A stretch of DNA of 64,000 nt from NCBI RefSeq assembly GCF_000186865.1, contig NW_008705565.1:1511686-1575685 (forward strand), read 5' to 3'. Source of the stretch: Aureococcus anophagefferens (taxonomy: Eukaryota > Sar > Pelagophyceae > Pelagomonadales > Pelagomonadaceae). The position numbers and the translations under genes were made by a program. This document shows positions 16,076 to 64,000 of this stretch, one piece after another. The notes under the pieces are model-generated. The model did no database searches. It was not told the origin of the DNA and saw only the letters and a program-made list of their open reading frames with translations. Position 1 is the first letter of the stretch; each line of letters begins with the position of its first letter.

Positions 16076-19000
16076 ATGGCCACGGCAATCATAGATGTGG
16101 TGACGACCCTCGGAAACACGCTGGGTCCCGCGGGCTACCGGCGCGTGACGACGGCGTCCGGCGGTCCCTTCGACCTGACGCGCGTGTCGACGTCCCTCGG
16201 CGGCTCCGTGTCGCGCGCGGGCGCGGTGTCCGCGACGGCCGTCTTTTTGTGGACGAAGCGCGGCGAAGCCGGCGGCGGCGCGGTCACGGGCGTGCGCCTC
16301 GTCGGCGACGGCGCGTCGCCCGGCGAGGCGAGCGACGAGTTCGGCGTGGGCGTCGGGAGCGAGCGCCTCGTGTTCAGCCGCGGCGCGGGCCGCGCGGTGT
16401 CGGAGCTCGTCGGCGAGCTCGAGGCGGGCGACGGCTCCGACGGCCGCGAGCGCGTGCGGCTCGGCTCCGGCGCGGCGCTGCGCGTGGCCCGCGTCGGCGA
16501 CGCCGAGGCCGACGCGCCCGGCGCGGCGCCGCGCGCGGCGGCGGCGAGCGGCGCGGGGCCCGCGGCGCGCGAGGCCGCGGAGCTCGAGGACGAGCTCGTG
16601 CCAGGGCAGCAAAAGGGTGATTCAACGTCGCTTCAACGTGAGTGTTCCGCGCGCGCGCGTTCCGGAAACAGCACCCACGCTTCGAGAGCGCTCCGAGAGA
16701 TGATCGCTCGTCCAAAAATCAGCCGAAACGAGCGGAAAACGACCGAGATAGGAGCCTTTGAAGTTGGGAATTTCGCACCCTTTTCCTGCCCAGGCTCGTG
16801 CGCCGCGAGCTCTCGGCCGCGAAATGCGACGACGAGGCCTGGTGGGAGGGGCGCTTCGAGCCCGCGCTCGAGAAGCTCCTGTTAGCCGCGCGGCGCGACG
16901 CCGACGGCGCCCTCGGCGCGCGCGCGCACCGCCTGCTGCGGCGGACGCTCGAGGCGCTCGCGCGGCGCCTCGCGGACGCGTCCAGGCCCCTGGCCCCGGC
17001 GACGACGCGCATGCTCGCCCTGGCGCTGACGACGGGCGCGGGCGTCGCCGCGCGCCGCGCGGAGCTGCGGCCCGCGCCCGCGCCGTCCGCGGCGCCGCCG
17101 CCGGGCGCGGCGGCCGCGCGGACCGCGGACCGGCAGCCGGCGCCGAAGCAGGCGGCCTTCTTCGGCCGCTTCGGCGGCTCCAAGGCCGCGCGCGGCAAGG
17201 CCGGGTCGCGGTCGTCGTCGTCGGACGCGTCGACGGCGGGGTCGCTCCTCGGCGCGGCCGCGGACGGCGCGGCGCTTCAGCGCGGATTCCGACCCGACGA
17301 ACCGGACGAGTGGGCGCCGCCGCTCGAGCCGCTGCTCGGGGGTTTACTGGATGACGTCGGCGGGGCGACGCCGCGGAACCCGCTCCGGGGCGGCCGCGCG
17401 CGGCGGACGAAGGCGCTCTGGCCCCTGGACGAGGGCAGCGAGAGCGAGGGCGAGGGGCCCGGCGACCGCCTCGACGACGCGTTGGGCGCGGACCGCGCGG
17501 CGCTCCTGCGCTTCGCGGAGGCGTCGAAGCAGCCGGGCGCCTCCTTCGCGGCGCGGCCGGACCCCGACGGCGACGACGGCCGCGGCGCGGGCGTGCTTCT
17601 AGATCACTTCGCGCGCGCGGGCGGCGTCGACGCTCTCGTCGCGCGGCTCTCGCCCGCGGGCAAGCGGCCCCTCGACGTGCTCGTGCTCCGGCGCCTGCTC
17701 GGCGCGTTCTACGTCGGCGCGGCCAAGGCGGCGCCGACGATCCCGCCGGCCTTTGGCGGCGTCGTCGCGCGCGCGGTGCAGCGCGCGGGGAACGCGCGGA
17801 TCCGAGCGCTCGCGGCCGAGGCGCCGCAGCACCGCCACCGGCGCTACGCGGAGGCCGACGGCCGCTGGGACTTTGGCGAAGCTTTGGCGGGCGCGCGGGA
17901 GAAGCTCTGTTTGGTCGTCGGCGCGCTCGCGCGCGACGCGTTCCTCGGCGGCGACGTCCACGAGTCGCTCGACTCGCCGGCGACGATGGGCGACCGGTCC
18001 GCGTCGCAGTCGAGCTTCGCGTCGCTCGGCGACGGCGACGGCCGGCGGAGGCGGAGCCCGGCGACGTCCTGGAAGGCCCACGTGGCTTCTTATTGGAACG
18101 GCGCGCCCGCGGGCGACCAGCCGGCGGACGCGGGCTTGGACGCGCGGCACCGCGCGCTCCGCGCGTCCGCGGAGCGGCTCCAGGTCGACGTGGCCTACGT
18201 GGCCTTCGCCGACGCGGCGCGCCCGGCGGCGGAGCGCCTCGCGGGGCTCGAGGGCCTCGGCGCCGTCGCGCGCGGCGTCGACGAGACGGGCGCGTTCCAG
18301 CTCGGCGCCGGCGCCGACGGCGCGCCGCCGCCGCGGCCGCCGCCGCCCTGGGCGTCCGGCCGCGGCGACGCGCGCTGGGAGCTCGGCGAGCAGGCGCTGT
18401 CCATCTGGCTCGCGAAGCGCGACGTGCCCGGCGCCGTGACGAAGCTCGCGCGGGGCGACCGCGACGCGCTCGACCGGGGCGGCGCGGTGCTCGCCGTCGC
18501 CGCGCGGCGCGGGCCCTTTTCGCCGAAGCTCGTCGAGGACCTCGCGGCGCTCGCCATCGCCGACGCCGACGACGAGGCCGTCGACGCCGGCCCGGAGGTC
18601 GCCGACGGTGCGCCGCGGCCGCGCGGCGCGCGGGCGTGGGGCGCGTCGCCCGGCGGCCGCCGGAGGTCCCGGGGCGCGTCGGGCCGGCGGTCTGCCTCCG
18701 GCGACGCCGTCGCGCCGCCGAGCTCCTGGCGCATCTTCGTCGCCCTCGCCGCGCGCCTGCCGCCGGACCTCGTCGCGCGCCAGCGCGACGCGCTCCGGCG
18801 CGCGTTTTCGGACGGCGGTCCGACGCCGCGCCGCGCGGACCTCGTGGGCCGCTTCGCGGCCGTCGCGGCCGTGCGCCTGCGCGCCGTCGCGTCGCCCGAC
18901 GAGCCGGCGAGTCTCGAGGCGACGCTCGACGGCGGGCTGGCCCTGCTCTGGCGCTGGGCGGCCGCGGCCCACGCGCCGGGCCCCGGCGACGCGGGCGCGG

Positions 19001-22000
19001 CGCGCGCGGGCCGCGCGCTCTCCGCGCTCCTCCACGGGCCGCCGGAGCCGCTGGAGCGGTCGAGCGTGCTCTGCTGCGAGCTCTGCGTGGACCGCCTCAA
19101 GGCGCCGGCGCAATCGGACGACGACCGGCGCGCCGCGGCGCGCGCCGCGGCGCTCCTGGGCGACCTCGCGACGGTCGGCGACGGCGGCGGGCCGGGCCCG
19201 GGCGACCCGGCCCTGGGTTTTAGGGGAGGCGGGACCATGGTCGAGGTGCGCCGCGCGCGGCGCGTCCACGTCGAGCACCGGCGGGGCGCGTCGCTGCTCG
19301 CCGCGGCGCTCGACGCCGCGGAGGCCGAGAAGGCCGCGGGGGGGCCCGCGTACCGCGCGGCGCTGGACCTCGCGCTGGCGCTGGCGTCGGACGCCCTCGT
19401 CGTCGTCAACTCGCTGCAGCACGCCGTGCCCCTGAAGCTCTGCGACGCCGCGGACGTCGCGCGCGCGCGGCGCGACGACGGCGACTTCGTCGCGTGGCTC
19501 GCCGCGGCCGCGGATCGCCTCGCGCTGGACCCGGGCGCCGCCGAGGCGGCGCTCCTGGAGCTCGCGCGGGGCAAGGTGCGCCTGCGGGGCGTCTGCGCCG
19601 CCGCCGTCGCGCTCTTCGAGCTCGCGGACGGCCGGAGCCGCCGCGACGGCTACGGCGGCCGCGTCGCCGCGCTCGTCGACGTCTGGCTCGTCGCGGCGCG
19701 CGGCGACGAGCCCTGGGGCGAGCGGTCCGCGTCGCTCCTGGCCAAGGTCTGCCGCGCGGGCGGGCCGACGCGCGCGGCCGTCGTCGGCCGCTGCGTCGAC
19801 GCGGCGCGCGCGGGCGACGCCGCGGCCGCGCGGCGCGCGGCGCGCGTGCTGCGGCGGGCCCTGGGCGGCGGGGCGGCGCCGCCCTGGCCCGCGGCCGCGC
19901 CGCCGCCGGGCGCGCCGGCGGACGGCGAAGAAGAAGGCGAGAACGCGGCCTGGGCCGCGCTCGACGGCGTCGACGCCGGCGGCGACGCGGCGGCGCTCCT
20001 CGCGCGGCTGCGCGTCGCGTCGGCCCTCGCCGCGGGGTCGCCGGCCTGGAAGCGCACGCTCGGCGACCGCGGCGCGCTCCGCAGGGTCGGCGCGCTGCTC
20101 GAGCCCCTGCGGTCGCGCGGCGACGCGGCCGCCGCGCGCGCGCTCCGCGCGGCGCTCGGTCTCCTCCTGGACCTCCTGTCGTCGGAAAACTCGCCGCCGG
20201 CGACGGGCGCCCACCTCGGCGACGACCTCGGGGGCCTGCTCGACGCCCTCCTTGAGATCGCGGCGACGCGGCCGCGCGTCGGGGGCCTCGCGGCGCGCGC
20301 CGTGCTCGCGCTCGCCGCCGCGGCGCCCGGCGCGGTCGCGGGCGGCGGCGAGGCGCCGGCGGGGTCGTCGCCGTCGGACGTGACGCCGAACCTCGGCGCC
20401 CTGGACCGGACCCGCGACGCCGCGGCCGCGACCGACCGCCTCGCGGCGGCCGTCGCGTCGGACGCCTTCGGCGCCGCGTTCGCCGCGTGTCTCCTCCCGC
20501 GCGCCTTCGACGACGACGAGCCGGCGGCGCCGCGCCGCGCGCGCGAGCGGCGCGCGCTCCGCGGCGACGCGCTGCGCCTCGCGCGCGACGGCGACGGCGC
20601 GGCCGCGCCGCTCGCGACGCGGCTCCTCGAGGCGCTGCGCGCGGACGACGCGGCGGACGCCCTCGCGCCGGAGCCCCACGCGCGGGCGTTGGAGCTCGCG
20701 GCCCAGCTGCTCGACGCCGCGCGCTGCGCGGCGCCGGCGGGCGCCGTCGACGCGGTCGCGCGCGCCGTCGCGGCGCGCGCCGCGGACGACGCCGCGCGGC
20801 GCGTCGACGCGGCCGAGCTCGCGGAGCCGGCGGCGCTCGACGACGACTCGAGCGACGGCGAGTCGTCCGACGACGGCGGGCCCGCCGCGCGGCCCGCGCC
20901 GGCGCGCGACGACGACGACGCGCGGCGGCCGCCGGCGCNNNNNNNNNNNNNNNNNNNNNNNNNNNNNNNNNNNNNNNNNNNNNNNNNNNNNNNNNNNNNG
21001 GCCGAGCGGCGCCGCGGCGACGGCCCTGGCGGCGCACCTCGCGCGGGTCTGCGATCTCGACCTCGCGGGCGCCGCGGCGCCCGCGGCGCCGGCGCCCGTC
21101 GCGCGCGGGCCCGAGCGCGACGACGCGCTCCACGCGCTGTCGGCGCTCTGCGACGTCGACAGCGGCGCCTTCTTCGCCGTCGCCGAGGCGGCGCTGCGGC
21201 TCCACGGCGACCCGGAGGCCGGCGACGACCTCCGGGACCCGGAGTCCGTCGCCGCGCGCCTCGAGGCCGCGGACGTCGTCCGCGCGCCGCACGCGCTGCC
21301 GCCGCCGGCGCCCCAGGGCCTCGCGCCGCGCGACGACGGCGCCCTGCGCCCGACGTCCGGGCCGTCGCCGCCGGGCCCGCCGCCGCCGGGCCGCGCGCTC
21401 CAGGCGCCGCCGCCGACGCAGTTCGTGTCGCCGCGCGCCGCGGCGTCCGCGGCGGGCGGCGCGCCCGCGGCGACGGCGACGACGACGGTCGTCGCCATCC
21501 CGCCGCGGCGCGGCGACGAGGGGCTGGCGGGGTTGGAGAATCTCGGGTGCACGTGCTACCTCAACTCGACGCTCCAACTTTTGGTGTCCGTGCGGTCGTT
21601 CCGCGCGGCGGCCTTCGCGCTCGACGCGAAGCAGCAGGGCCTCGCCCGCGAGCTCCAGTTACTCGTGACGCGGCTCCAGATGCGCGACGCGTCGACCGTG
21701 AGCCGGCGCGACTTCTGCGCCCACTTCAAGAACTGGGACGACGAGCCCGTCGACGTCCGCGTGCAGCAGGACGCGTCCGAGTTCCTCTCGAATTTATTTA
21801 CCCAGGTCGAGCGCCTCGCGCTGGCGCCGGGCGACGGCGCCGTCGCCGCGCCGGAGGCGGAGGAGGCCGCGCCGACGGCGGCGTCGCGCCTCGAGCGGGC
21901 CTTCGGGGGCGTCTTCGCGCACGAGTTGGTTTCCGTACGCGACCCCGCGGGCAACTCGAGCCGCCGCGACGAGCCCTTCTACATGCTGAGCGTCCAGGTC

Positions 22001-25000
22001 AAGGACCGGCGGCGTTTGGAGGACGCCCTCGAGGCCTTCGTGAGCCCGGAGCTCGTGGACTACTCGTGGCGCGACGGCGGGCGCCGCGAGAAGACGTCGA
22101 AGCGCGCGTCGATCAAGCGCTGCCCGAACCTGTGTGGAAATCAAATCTTCAACCCGACTTCAATGTGCGCGTATGCGACCGTTTCGACGCGAGGTTTTCT
22201 GCTGTGCTTCGAGAAATTGACGAGAACAATCGATTCGTCCAAAAATCAGCCAAATCGACTTCGACTTGACCGAGCTAGAGATTTCTGAAGTTTGGCCCCG
22301 ACGTCCCAGCTCACTGGTTGATTTCCACGCAGGCCCGAACCACCTGCTGCTCCACCTCAAGCGCTTCGAGTTCGACCTGACGACGCTGAGCCAGCGCAAG
22401 ATCAACTCGCGCTTCGAGTTCCCGGCGGTGCTGGACCTGGCGCCCTACGTCTGGCGCGGCGACGCGCAGCGGACGCCGTCGCGGCCCGACGCGGCGGCCG
22501 CCGCGGCGCCGCCGCCGCTGGACCTCGGCGCGCCGGCGGTGAAGCGCGGCGACGAGGGCTACGACAGCGACGCCGACGACGCGGACCGCGACGCGCGCGA
22601 CCGCGACCGCGTGGGCCGGGGCGAGCCCGTGCTCTACGACCTCGGCGGCGTCGTCGTCCACAGCGGCAACTGCAACTCGGGCCACTACTACAGCTTCGTC
22701 CGCGAGCAGGGCGGCGACTGGTTCGAGTTCAACGACGCCCACGTCGCGCCCTTCGACGCGCGGGACCTCGGCGCCGAGTGCTTTGGGGGCGCGGAGCCGC
22801 GCGCGCCGGCGGCGCGCGGCGGCGGCCTCGACGAGCTCCGGCCGTTCGCGAACGGCGGGCCCCAGCTCCAGCGCGAGCGCACGCGCAACGCCTTCCTGCT
22901 GGTCTACCACCGGCGGGGCTCGAAGCAGGCGCCGGAGGCCGCGGCGGCGCGCCGCGACGGCGACGGCGGCGCACCGCGGCGCCGCGAGAGGCGCTGGGAC
23001 GGCCTCGTGCCGCCGCCGCGGACCGCGCTCGACCGCATGAACCGCGAGAACGCGGCCCTGCGCCGCGCGCGGGCGGCCTTCGACGAGGGCGCCGTCGCTT
23101 TTGCGGCGCGGCTCGTCGTCCACGGCCTGCGGCCGAGCCCGTTCGACGACGCCGCGCGCGACGCGCGCGCCGCGGTCGCCGCCGCGCGGCTCGGCGGCGT
23201 CCTCTGCGTGCGCACGCTCGCGCGCGCGCGCACGGACGAGTCCGCGGCCCTGCTGGCGCGCTGCGCGTCGGCCCTGGCGACGGCGCTCGCCGGCGGCGGC
23301 GAAAACGCGCGCGCGGCGGCGCGCGCGGTGCTCGGCGACCTCCGGGCCGCGGCGCCGGGCCTCGACCGCGCGCTGCGCCGGGCCGCGGCGCACCCCGACG
23401 ACGCCGCGCGGGAGTCGCTCTGCGGCGTCTTCGCCGCCGCGCTCGCCGCGTTGGAAGGCGAGCCGGAGTTCGCGGACGCGGGCGGCGCGCTCGTCCGCGC
23501 CGCGCGCGAGACGCCGCCGCCGGCGCCGCGGCGCCGCGGCGCGGACTACGAGCGCTGCGCGGCGCGCGCCGCCTGCGACGTCCTCGCGCTCGTCTGCCGG
23601 TCTTCGGCCGGCGCGGGCGCGGCGCTCGCGCGGCTCGAGGTGGGGGACGAGTCCGGGCTCGAAGCCACCAGGACCGCCGTCGACGCGATCGCCGCGGGCG
23701 TCGCCGAGGCCGCGGGCGACGACCCCTTCCGCACGGGCGCCGACGACGGCAAGGTTTCCGTGCCGTCGGCCCACTCGTTGCGCAAGCTCCTCGACGCGGC
23801 GCCGTTCCTCGGCGGGGCCTTCGCGCCCAAGGCGGAAGCGCTCGCGCTGCTGCTGGAGCGCGCGGCGCCCGACGACGCGAAAAAGGCCCTCGACGCGCTG
23901 ACGGGCGCGCAGGTCGCGGCTTTAGCCTACGGCGCCGCGTCGCTGCTGGACCGGGGGCGGCACAGCCGCCGGGGCTCGGACGAGCAGCGGCGGCGGTCCG
24001 CGGCCGCGCGGTCGGTGCTCGAGGCCGTCGTCGCGAACGACGCGCCGCGGAGCGACGTCGTGTTAGCCGCCCTCGCGGCGTCCTTGGAGCGCGCGGGCAC
24101 GGCGCGGCCCGACGAGTCGAGCGACAGCGACGACGGCCGGGGCCCGCCGGGCGCGGAGCCACCGCCCCGCTACTACGGCGCGGGCCGCGCCTTACGGCGC
24201 GCGTGGCGCGCGCTCGGCGTCGTCCTGCGCGTCGACGACGGGCTGCGCCACTGGCGCGCGACGAAGGGCCTCGGCCGCGCCGTCGCCGTCGCGGAGCACG
24301 CCTTCGAGCGCGGCGCCAAGGAGGGCAAGGTCCGCGCGGCCGTCGAGGAGCTGCTCAAGCTGTGCAAGCGCGACGCGAAGGCGCGCGACTGGGCGCGGAC
24401 CCACGCCCACGCCTGCGCCTGGCTCGAGACCTGGGCGTCGGGCCACGGCCCGCCGCCGGACCGGCCCGACGCCGCGCGCGGCGCGGGCGCGCTCTCGGGC
24501 TTCCACCGCGCGGCCGGCGGCGCCGCGGCGGCCCGGCGGCCCGGCGACGCGGCGCCGGGGCCCGACGGCGAGTGCGACGGCGACGCGCCGTCCTTCTCCG
24601 GCGCGGCCCTGGGCGCCTTCGGCGCCGTCGCGAGCGCCGCGCGCGCGCTCGCGTCCCACCGCGCGACGCCGCCGCCGCCGGACGACGGGCCGCCGCGCGA
24701 CGACGGCGCCGCCGCGCCGCCGCCGCCGCCGCCGCCGCCGGCCTACCACGACGCCCGCCCGCCCGCCGCCGCCGCGGCGCCGCGGCGCCGCGCGAAGCAG
24801 CCGGACCTGCTCCACCGCGTGCGGACGCTCGCGAAACCGTCGAAGGGCGCGCCCGAGCCCTTCGACGCGCTCGCGCCCTACGACTCCGACGACGACCCCA
24901 ACGTCCTCGTCGGCCGCCGCGTCGAGGTCCGCTGGGCCGGCGGCACCTTCTACTCCGGCGTCATCAGCAACTTCGACGACCTCGGCCACCACGTCTGCTA

Positions 25001-62594: not shown

Positions 62595-64000
62595 ATGGGC
62601 GCGGAACCGGAGGGTTGCTACGACGCCCCCCCGACGGCGTCGATGAAGCGCAACTTCTCGGGCCAGGTCTGCCGCCCGGAAGGTGCGCCCCCCGCCCCGC
62701 GCTCCCTCCCCCCGCCGCTCCGTCGGAAAGCCGCGACCCCGCGCGCCCCAGGCGTTTCCCGCGGCCCGCCCTGCGGCTACCACGCGGGCCAGCGCGTGGA
62801 CGTGCTCGACACGGTGAAGAAGTGGGCCGAGGCCGAGGTCGTCCGCGTCGACGACGCCGCGCGGCGCCTGCTCGTGACGTACACGTACTGGAGCGACAAG
62901 TGGGACGAGTGGCTGCCCGCCGAGAGCCCGCGCATCGCGCCCTTCGGGTCCCGCACCTACCAGCGGGGCGGCGCGCCCACGCCGGGCCAGCGCGTCGAGG
63001 CGCTCGACGAGACGGGCGCGTGGCTCGAGGCCGAGGTTCTGGACGCGCGGCCGGGCGCGGCGTTCGTGCACTACAAGGGCTTCCACCGCAAGTTCGACGA
63101 CTGGGTCGACGTCGGCACGCGGCTCCGGGAGTTCGGGCGGACCCGCGCGCCCCAGCTCCGGAAGCGGCCGCCGCCGCCGCGGCGGACGTACGCCGTGGCC
63201 GACGGCCCGGAGACGGACGACGGCGCGCCGCGGCCCGCGGAAGCCGGGGCGCCGGCGCCGCGGGCGCCGCGGCCCCCGCGCGCCGTGCCGGCGACGGGCG
63301 ACGTCTTCGACCGCTACCAGCGCTGCCTCCGGCGCCGGGGCCTGAGCCTCGTCCGCGTCGACGGCGACGGCAACTGCCTCTTCCGGTCCGTCGCGCACCA
63401 GGTCTACGGCGACGACGTGCACCACGACGTCGTGCGCCGCAAGTGCATGGACTACATGGACGCGGAGCAGGCCTTCTTCGAGCCCTACGTCGAGGGCGAC
63501 GCGTCCGCGTTCCGCCCCGTGTGGAAATCAACCACCGGTTTGGGGGGTCCCCACCAAACTTCAGAACTCTCTAGCTCGGTCAAATCGAAGTCGATTCGGC
63601 TGATTTTTGGACGAATCGATTGCTCTCGTCGAGTTCTCGAAGCACGGCAGAAAGCCTTGCGTCGAAACGGTCGCATACGCGCACATTGAAGTCGGGTTGA
63701 AGATTTGAGTTCCACGCAGGTTCCGCCGCTACGTCGCCGCGAAGCGCCGCGACGGCGCGTGGGGCGACGAGCCCGAGGTCCAGGCGCTCTGCGAGCTCTA
63801 CGACCGGCCCGCGGAGATCTGGTCCTACGACGCCGCGGCCAACGCCAAGGCCGGCGGCGCCAAGGTGCTCCGGACCTTCCACGGCGGCGAGCAGGCGTCC
63901 GCGGGCGGCGCGATGGCCGTCGGCGACGTCCGCCGCGCGCCCATGCGCCTCTCGTACTACGGCGGCGGCCACTACGACTCCGTCGTGCGCGACGCGGAGC
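62595..64000 (+). CDS. OTU-family deubiquitinase (OTUD5-like) with two Tudor/Agenet-like modules; interrupted by an introner; 3' end outside window
   Basis: Exons: 62595-62682, 62752-63508 and 63720 onward (the first intron, 69 bp, is an in-frame length and less certain). The N-terminal part has paired barrels: YHAGQRVDVLDTVKKWAEAEVV to YWSDKWDEWLPAES, and PGQRVEALDETGAWLEAEVL to KFDDWVDVGTRL. The OTU domain follows: VRVDGDGNCLFRSVAHQVYGDDVHH (catalytic Asp/Cys), then CMDYMDAEQAFFEPYVEGDASA joined by splicing to FRRYVAAKRRDGAWGDEPEVQA, ELYDRPAEIWSYD, and YYGGGHYDSVV with the catalytic His. The order matches OTUD5. It removes ubiquitin. The stop codon lies beyond position 64000. Confidence 0.88.
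62683..62751 (+). other. Probable short intron in the OTU gene
   Basis: GTGCGCC donor, C-rich interior and CCCCAG acceptor, 69 bp, the same donor style and length as the BET1 intron. Its length is a multiple of three with no stop, so retention would only insert 23 Pro/Arg/Ala residues in a disordered N-terminus. The splice is likely but cannot be decided from sequence. Confidence 0.5.
63517..63719 (-). mobile_element. Introner element, subfamily A, inverted copy, forming an intron of the OTU gene
   Basis: 203 bp, reverse complement of the element at 22130-22332 with strong identity across the interior. Left end CCGTGTGGAAATCAA, right end TTGAGTTCCACGCAG. The 8-bp target duplication is GTTCCGCC (63509-63516 and 63720-63727). 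The intron is 63509-63719 (211 bp), with GT donor from the duplication and the element's terminal CAG as acceptor. Splicing yields DASAFRRYVAAK inside the OTU domain with no base gained or lost. Confidence 0.93.

Follow-up and report, generated by a model that had tools for sequence, protein, structure and literature searches.

The window analysed here, a stretch of 64,000 nucleotides from Aureococcus anophagefferens, contains two copies of one short element in opposite orientations, each of which accounts for most of a putative intron in a protein-coding gene. The pair raises the question of how a single element can supply a 3' splice site in either direction and, as a first reading based on the letters of this DNA (the sequence-only reading) had proposed, whether selection acts on the end used as acceptor and on that end alone. 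The effect proves genuine and belongs to a class already known, and the end-by-end test of selection is clean and strong.

Two Copies of One Element in the Window

Both elements are 203 bp long, and that at 63517-63719 aligns without gaps, at 88.2% identity, with the reverse complement of that at 22130-22332. Together they form the longest inverted pair of the window (I1, 215 nt; the runner-up measures 79 nt). Each copy is bracketed by perfect 8-bp direct repeats, GTTCCGCC for the 63517 copy and GCCCGAAC for the 22130 copy, which are regarded as target-site duplications (TSD). Since the intron comprises the element and one TSD (203 + 8), its predicted length is 211 bp at both loci (63509-63719 and 22122-22332), so that the sequence-only reading had measured and placed the pair correctly. 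Because both host genes lie on the + strand, the two elements are also opposed relative to the genes. Their G+C content is 49-53%, vs 72% for the window. The features of the two loci are as follows.

62909..64000, + strand: segment of the host gene split by the element, encoding a Tudor-knot and an OTU-type deubiquitinase and followed as far as the end of the window
63509..63516, + strand: upstream TSD GTTCCGCC, with an exact repeat at 63720-63727
63517..63719, + strand: introner copy, 203 bp, with ends CCGTGTGG...CCACGCAG; the acceptor is the right end
63720..63727, + strand: downstream TSD, which matches 63509-63516 exactly and stays exonic
21422..22752, + strand: segment of the other split host gene, encoding a ubiquitin hydrolase of the USP type (PF00443, USP34 match)
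22122..22129, + strand: upstream TSD GCCCGAAC, with an exact repeat at 22333-22340
22130..22332, - strand: introner copy, 203 bp, in the opposite orientation; the acceptor is the left end
22333..22340, + strand: downstream TSD, which matches 22122-22129 exactly and stays exonic

Removal of the 211 bp leaves one open frame through each junction, whereas their retention introduces stops in that frame. At the first locus the putative 5' splice site is GT, the first two bases of 63509..63516, and splicing here would restore an OTU domain: once spliced, the frame matches PF02338 (E 1.8e-17) across the junction, and the alignment with OTUD5 (3tmo, E 9.8e-25) crosses it with a 3-residue gap directly before the junction. 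At the second locus the first two bases of 22122..22129 provide a putative GC donor (type GC-AG), the frame obtained by splicing matches UCH (PF00443, E 5.3e-43) across the junction and the alignment with USP34 (7w3r) is gapless there. An Rfam scan of the window gave nothing at the gathering score, and phage and viral collections, which may omit entries close to this genome, gave no match.

The ends of the two copies differ in state. The 63517 copy has an intact CAG at its used right end and no AG at its unused left end (CTG to CCG); the 22130 copy has CCACGCAG at its used end, and its unused end, CTGTGTGG, equals the family consensus described below. The observation from which the sequence-only reading started is therefore partly confirmed. 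Its end pattern CTGxGTGG...CCACxCAG is not followed by the left end CCGTGTGG of the 63517 copy. An intact acceptor was rightly noted insofar as CAG is preserved in both copies, but the CGCAG named as the intact form differs from the consensus by A to G at -4. Drift of the unused end is seen in the 63517 copy (CCGTG, AG lost) and not in the 22130 copy, as CTGTG equals the consensus, retains its AG and is ruled out as an instance of drift.

A Family of Introners in the Genome

A 22-mer from the element core has 585 matches (308 + 277) in the 49.05-Mb, 86-contig genome and its reversed control none, which excludes chance resemblance. A sample of 141 distinct full-length copies was drawn from the window's own genome, the sources being 30 loci found by best match, 30 found by core pattern, 74 further stretches, the window and neighbours within loci. 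It derives from 158 matches, 15 of which were dropped as partial, as members of a second family or as lying near an edge, and two as duplicates. The best-match search had listed 1760 first-look candidates, 40 of which were scored. Copies found by the core are unselected for end state, while best-match copies are biased toward 63517-like ones.

The length is exactly 203 bp in 116 of the 141 copies, and the 8-bp TSD is perfect in 111 and matches at 7 of 8 bases in 20. The family consensus terminates in CTGTGTGG...CCACACAG and carries terminal inverted repeats (TIRs) of 15 bp, CTGTGTGGAAATCAA / TTGATTTCCACACAG. Two hallmarks of introners are present: many near-identical putative introns occupy unrelated positions in one genome, and the boundary of the element is that of the predicted intron, the coding sequence being restored on excision (134/141 copies; two Pfam domains). 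The combination of TIRs with a TSD of fixed length, the donor lying in the TSD and the acceptor in the element, is that of the A. anophagefferens type.

Two further observations concern the anatomy and the location of the copies. At TIR positions 6-12 the two arms are identical in 69 of 130 copies, vs a mean of 37.7 and a maximum of 53 in 2000 shuffles that leave kinship uncontrolled, and paired arm variants such as CCGAATT and TGCAAAT are present at both ends of copies. Nearly all copies lie within coding sequence, as judged by flanks in one frame, though they were found regardless of genes.

Reading Frame, Coding Strand and Donor Site

The coding strand was called by a codon model trained on the long open frames of the window and blind to the element and to the splice-site rule; the two 150-base flanks were scored independently after removal of the element and one TSD. 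Following this excision the flanks agree in strand and phase in the 134 copies mentioned above, compared with 1-3 of 141 when the junction is shifted by 1 or 2 bases and 11 of 141 when the element is kept. In the 139 copies with confident strand calls the acceptor is the right end in 74 and the left end in 65.

On the coding strand the donor dinucleotide of these 139 copies is GC in 75, GT in 62 and another in 2 (GY in 137/139). GY occurs on one strand only in 105 copies, 104 of which were confidently called, and in all 104 that strand is the coding strand (49 and 55). A strict set of 130 copies was defined by a strand margin >10, a TSD with at least 6 of 8 matching bases and agreement of the flanks; its donors are GC (70) and GT (60), with GA and GG absent. 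The corresponding exon dinucleotide frequencies are 16.2% for GC, 4.3% for GT, 6.8% for GA and 9.3% for GG, so that GT is preferred about threefold over GC. In three strict copies the two TSD copies differ at position 2, and in 3/3 it is the donor copy that has GC while the exonic one has GT, a pattern that decay of GT donors to GC would produce.

The copies might instead be ordinary MITEs that sit unspliced in coding DNA or in pseudogenes, a view with which their TIRs, their TSD and a length too short for encoding a transposase would agree. A retained copy would, however, shift the frame or add a stop (an in-frame stop arises in 124/130 copies; the insert length modulo 3 is 1 in 110/130 and 0 in 10/130), yet the flanks are in one frame almost throughout. 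Two enzyme domains that align through the junctions, GY on the coding strand and an AG conserved at one end only likewise contradict this explanation, which we consider very improbable. From frame, homology and conservation we infer that the copies are spliced.

Selection on the Used End

Insertion in both orientations had been anticipated, and the strict set divides almost evenly between them (69 vs 61 of 130, binomial p 0.54). In this set the A of the terminal AG, A(-2), is changed at 0/130 used and 24/130 unused ends (Fisher p 3.7e-8); one of the 24, L067, is perhaps offset by one base at its end, and an alignment by columns counts 23. Each orientation shows the same difference (used 0/69 vs unused 11/69; used 0/61 vs unused 13/61), and the changes at unused ends are spread over the thirds of divergence (12/43, 6/43 and 6/44). 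The comparison of used and unused ends that the sequence-only reading had proposed, run on copies of the same genome, has thus revealed both a difference in conservation and insertions in either direction; the interpretation that selection acts on the acceptor end is supported, with two details wrong.

One of these details concerns the extent of the motif. At the other As the changes at used and unused ends are 23 vs 21 for A(-4), 13 vs 18 for A(-6) and 16 vs 13 for A(-12) (n=130), and among the As of used ends -2 stands out from these three (p 8e-8 to 2e-4). Since -4 varies as much at used as at unused ends, what is selected is AG and not CGCAG, which is ruled out as the acceptor motif. A conserved branch-point A at -12 is likewise ruled out, and so is selection for breaking the TIR as a means of immobilising the element, as -1, -3 and -5 of unused ends are changed in 2/130 copies each.

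When the 203 columns are ranked by how strongly they depend on orientation, the two terminal AG positions come first: column 202 is changed in 0/69 vs 12/61 copies (p 6e-5) and column 2 in 11/69 vs 0/61 (p 8e-4), whereas the third-ranked column (p 0.02) does not exceed what is expected from 203 columns. This result bears on the possibility that the ends differ because of subfamilies or of a mutation bias specific to one end, rather than by selection. Such a bias could account for the loss spectra, which differ between left and right ends; it cannot sense the strand of a gene, and the effect flips with orientation, the left end being lost in 11/69 vs 0/61 copies and the right end in 0/69 vs 12/61. 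The lack of any difference between used and unused ends at -4, -6 and -12 is also contrary to it, and we regard this explanation as extremely improbable.

In the wider set of 139 copies AG is present at 137 used vs 113 unused ends (p 1e-6). Exceptions among the called used ends are L014, which adjoins an assembly gap and has no TSD, and L077, which is truncated and has no TSD; these and nine other copies are excluded by the strict filter. The unused A(-2) is changed in 18.5% of copies vs 6.7% for the average A/T site, an average that takes in the core by which many copies were found, and this excess goes beyond simple drift unless the site is mutable.

Genome-Wide Search for Counterexamples

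Right ends were counted throughout the genome by their exact inner context, AAGATTTGATTTCCACRC, ends before GA or GG or with an altered context being excluded. Before GY the AG is kept in 192 and lost in 9, and before a non-G base it is kept in 92 and lost in 20 (p 1.7e-4). An end before a non-G base cannot be an acceptor under the rule, and therefore only the 9 are possible broken acceptors. All 9 were examined and proved to be unused ends, the intact left end being the acceptor (strand margin >10 in 8 and 7.4 in L143). Losses of AG at the left end in exact context number 21 genome-wide, of which 5 were already sampled and 16 are new; the 8 new ones that were examined all use the AG-bearing right end, with CAG in seven and AAG in L151. 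Altogether 17 additional lost ends were examined, comprising all 9 on the right and 8 of the 16 new ones on the left, and every one is an unused end. The spectrum of A(-2) loss is not the same at the two ends: G 25, C 3 and T 1 of 29 at the right end, and T 10, G 6 and C 5 of 21 at the left.

A Second Introner Family

The window contains a third introner-type intron, which belongs to another family.

16594..16793, + strand: second-family intron, with a 192-bp element at 16602-16793

Its TSD, GCTCGTGC, occupies 16594-16601 and 16794-16801, and the element has CTGCCCAG at the used and CAGGGCAG at the unused end. A scan of the collected sequence for TSD-TIR pairs defines this family by a length of 192 bp, an 8-bp TSD, the TIR CNGGGCAG[CG]A[AC]AAG and a core in common with the main family. 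Among 22 matches 17 are clean, and these have AG at the used end in 17/17 and at the unused end in 0/17. Of the five matches dropped, three aligned poorly or were foreign, in one the strand was uncertain and in one the end was shifted by a base; as scored, no AG would be seen at the end called as used in four of the five.

With AG at a single end, a second-family copy has only one direction in which it could form an intron, and the family looks orientation-committed, one way per copy. The acceptor is one end in twelve of the clean copies and the other in five. On the tree of this family (22 rows) orientation requires 3 changes as labelled, one of them resting on a poor row. The one-way commitment fits the symmetry argument made for the main family.

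Timing of the Loss

The used AG might be preserved because selection operates at insertion only: elements damaged at one end would transpose and survive where the intact end is 3', with no later drift. The second family fits this scenario, given that its 17 clean copies all have one AG-less end and that four of its five copies with a left-end acceptor cluster together (plus one poor row) with a support of 96/96. In the main family the evidence points the other way. On a tree of element interiors a minimum of 22 changes is required to explain the 25 copies that have lost the unused AG, so most losses are not inherited, and loss goes with decay of the TSD, which is imperfect in 10/25 copies that have lost the unused AG vs 13/105 others (p 0.003). 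Orientation changes at least 41 times on the same tree. These counts and the association with TSD decay indicate repeated flips and loss after insertion. In sign tests on independent pairs all informative pairs have the same direction, with median p of 0.25 and 0.125 (few pairs). Selection confined to insertion appears unlikely for the main family and would still be selection on the acceptor, the timing alone being different.

A Proposed Mechanism

Very probably, then, a TIR transposon inserts with an 8-bp TSD, the insertions are selected for GY, the used AG is held by purifying selection and the other end drifts. In this scheme a non-autonomous DNA transposon with the TIRs given above would insert with an 8-bp duplication, the first two bases of which would become the donor while the CAG of an element end would become the acceptor, and the original coding sequence would be regained once the element and one duplication are removed. 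Survival in coding DNA would require a duplication beginning with GY on the coding strand, insertions of other kinds being presumably eliminated. After insertion, purifying selection would keep the AG of the used end and the opposite end would be free to drift. The geometry, the use of both orientations, the restoration of the frame and the constraint specific to one end are seen directly in the copies, and mobilisation is attributed, conditionally, to a transposase acting in trans. Searches for a cognate transposase with PF05699 (hAT-dimer) and PF12762 (IS1595-type DDE) gave no match in the genome, a hAT control being likewise silent, and a U1 search gave no match, with its control equally silent.

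A quite unlikely addition to this scheme is that change at base 2 of the unused end is favoured: it would unpair the acceptor A in an RNA hairpin formed between the TIRs and so free the acceptor. In the second family, with its more G+C-rich stem, the same hairpin-opening change would have reached completion and given rise to orientation-committed elements. In the youngest third of the copies the unused -2 is changed in 6/44, vs 3.5% for A/T sites (p 0.004; 3.7% without the core), and all 17 clean second-family copies lack AG at the unused end. Against such a role, A(-4) and A(-6) of the TIR are nearly as variable as -2, -1 and -3 hardly change, and the predicted RNA folding of the two introns of the main family in the window is only weakly better than that of shuffles (z -1.48 and -1.76).

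The interest of these introners lies in their symmetry. Because there are two interchangeable acceptor ends, one of which is used, the other end of each copy, some two hundred bases distant, serves as an internal control free of selection, and what splicing demands of a 3' splice site (here AG, whereas the base at -4 is not required) can be separated from mutation bias within one genome. The data indicate that introns made by transposons are held by selection after landing. They also suggest why symmetrical ends help, as an insertion may then be tolerated whichever way it points.

Relation to Known Introners

Insertion of introners in both orientations is credited to Huff et al. (2016) in a review (PMC10228655). 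According to other publications, the introners of A. anophagefferens have TIRs together with direct repeats whose length is constant (PMC7789003), a length of ~210 bp is characteristic of them (PMC9481584) and GC-AG introns amount to 39.6% in this species (PMC3033335). The high G+C content of the window, GC donors in more than half of the introner introns and the intron length of 211 bp are in keeping with a pelagophyte such as Aureococcus. The copies described here resemble the A. anophagefferens introners of Huff, Zilberman and Roy (2016) in their TIRs, constant repeats and length of ~210 bp, a likeness at the level of published descriptions. Gozashti et al. (2022) compared intron ends in both orientations and described donors supplied by the TSD (PMC9860276). 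Among the introner papers listed by literature searches, no title or abstract opening reports a comparison of used with unused ends, and Huff et al. (2016) may contain one.

Comparable designs are described in the same sources. Introner family 4 of the Aureococcus sp. TARA MAG, possibly from the same genus as the present element, has an 8-bp TSD, as here; in contrast to the exact excision and the TSD donor of the present family, it carries both splice sites and adds 12 bp to the transcript (PMC9860276). The introners of Symbiodinium microadriaticum share TIRs, a 3' splice site in the element and a 5' splice site in the TSD, which measures 4 bp vs 8 here (PMC9860276). The introner elements of Amoebophrya share internal inverted repeats and direct repeats at the intron boundary; their splice sites are mostly non-canonical and their direct repeats 3-5 nt long, whereas the present family has GY-AG introns and repeats of 8 bp (PMC7789003).
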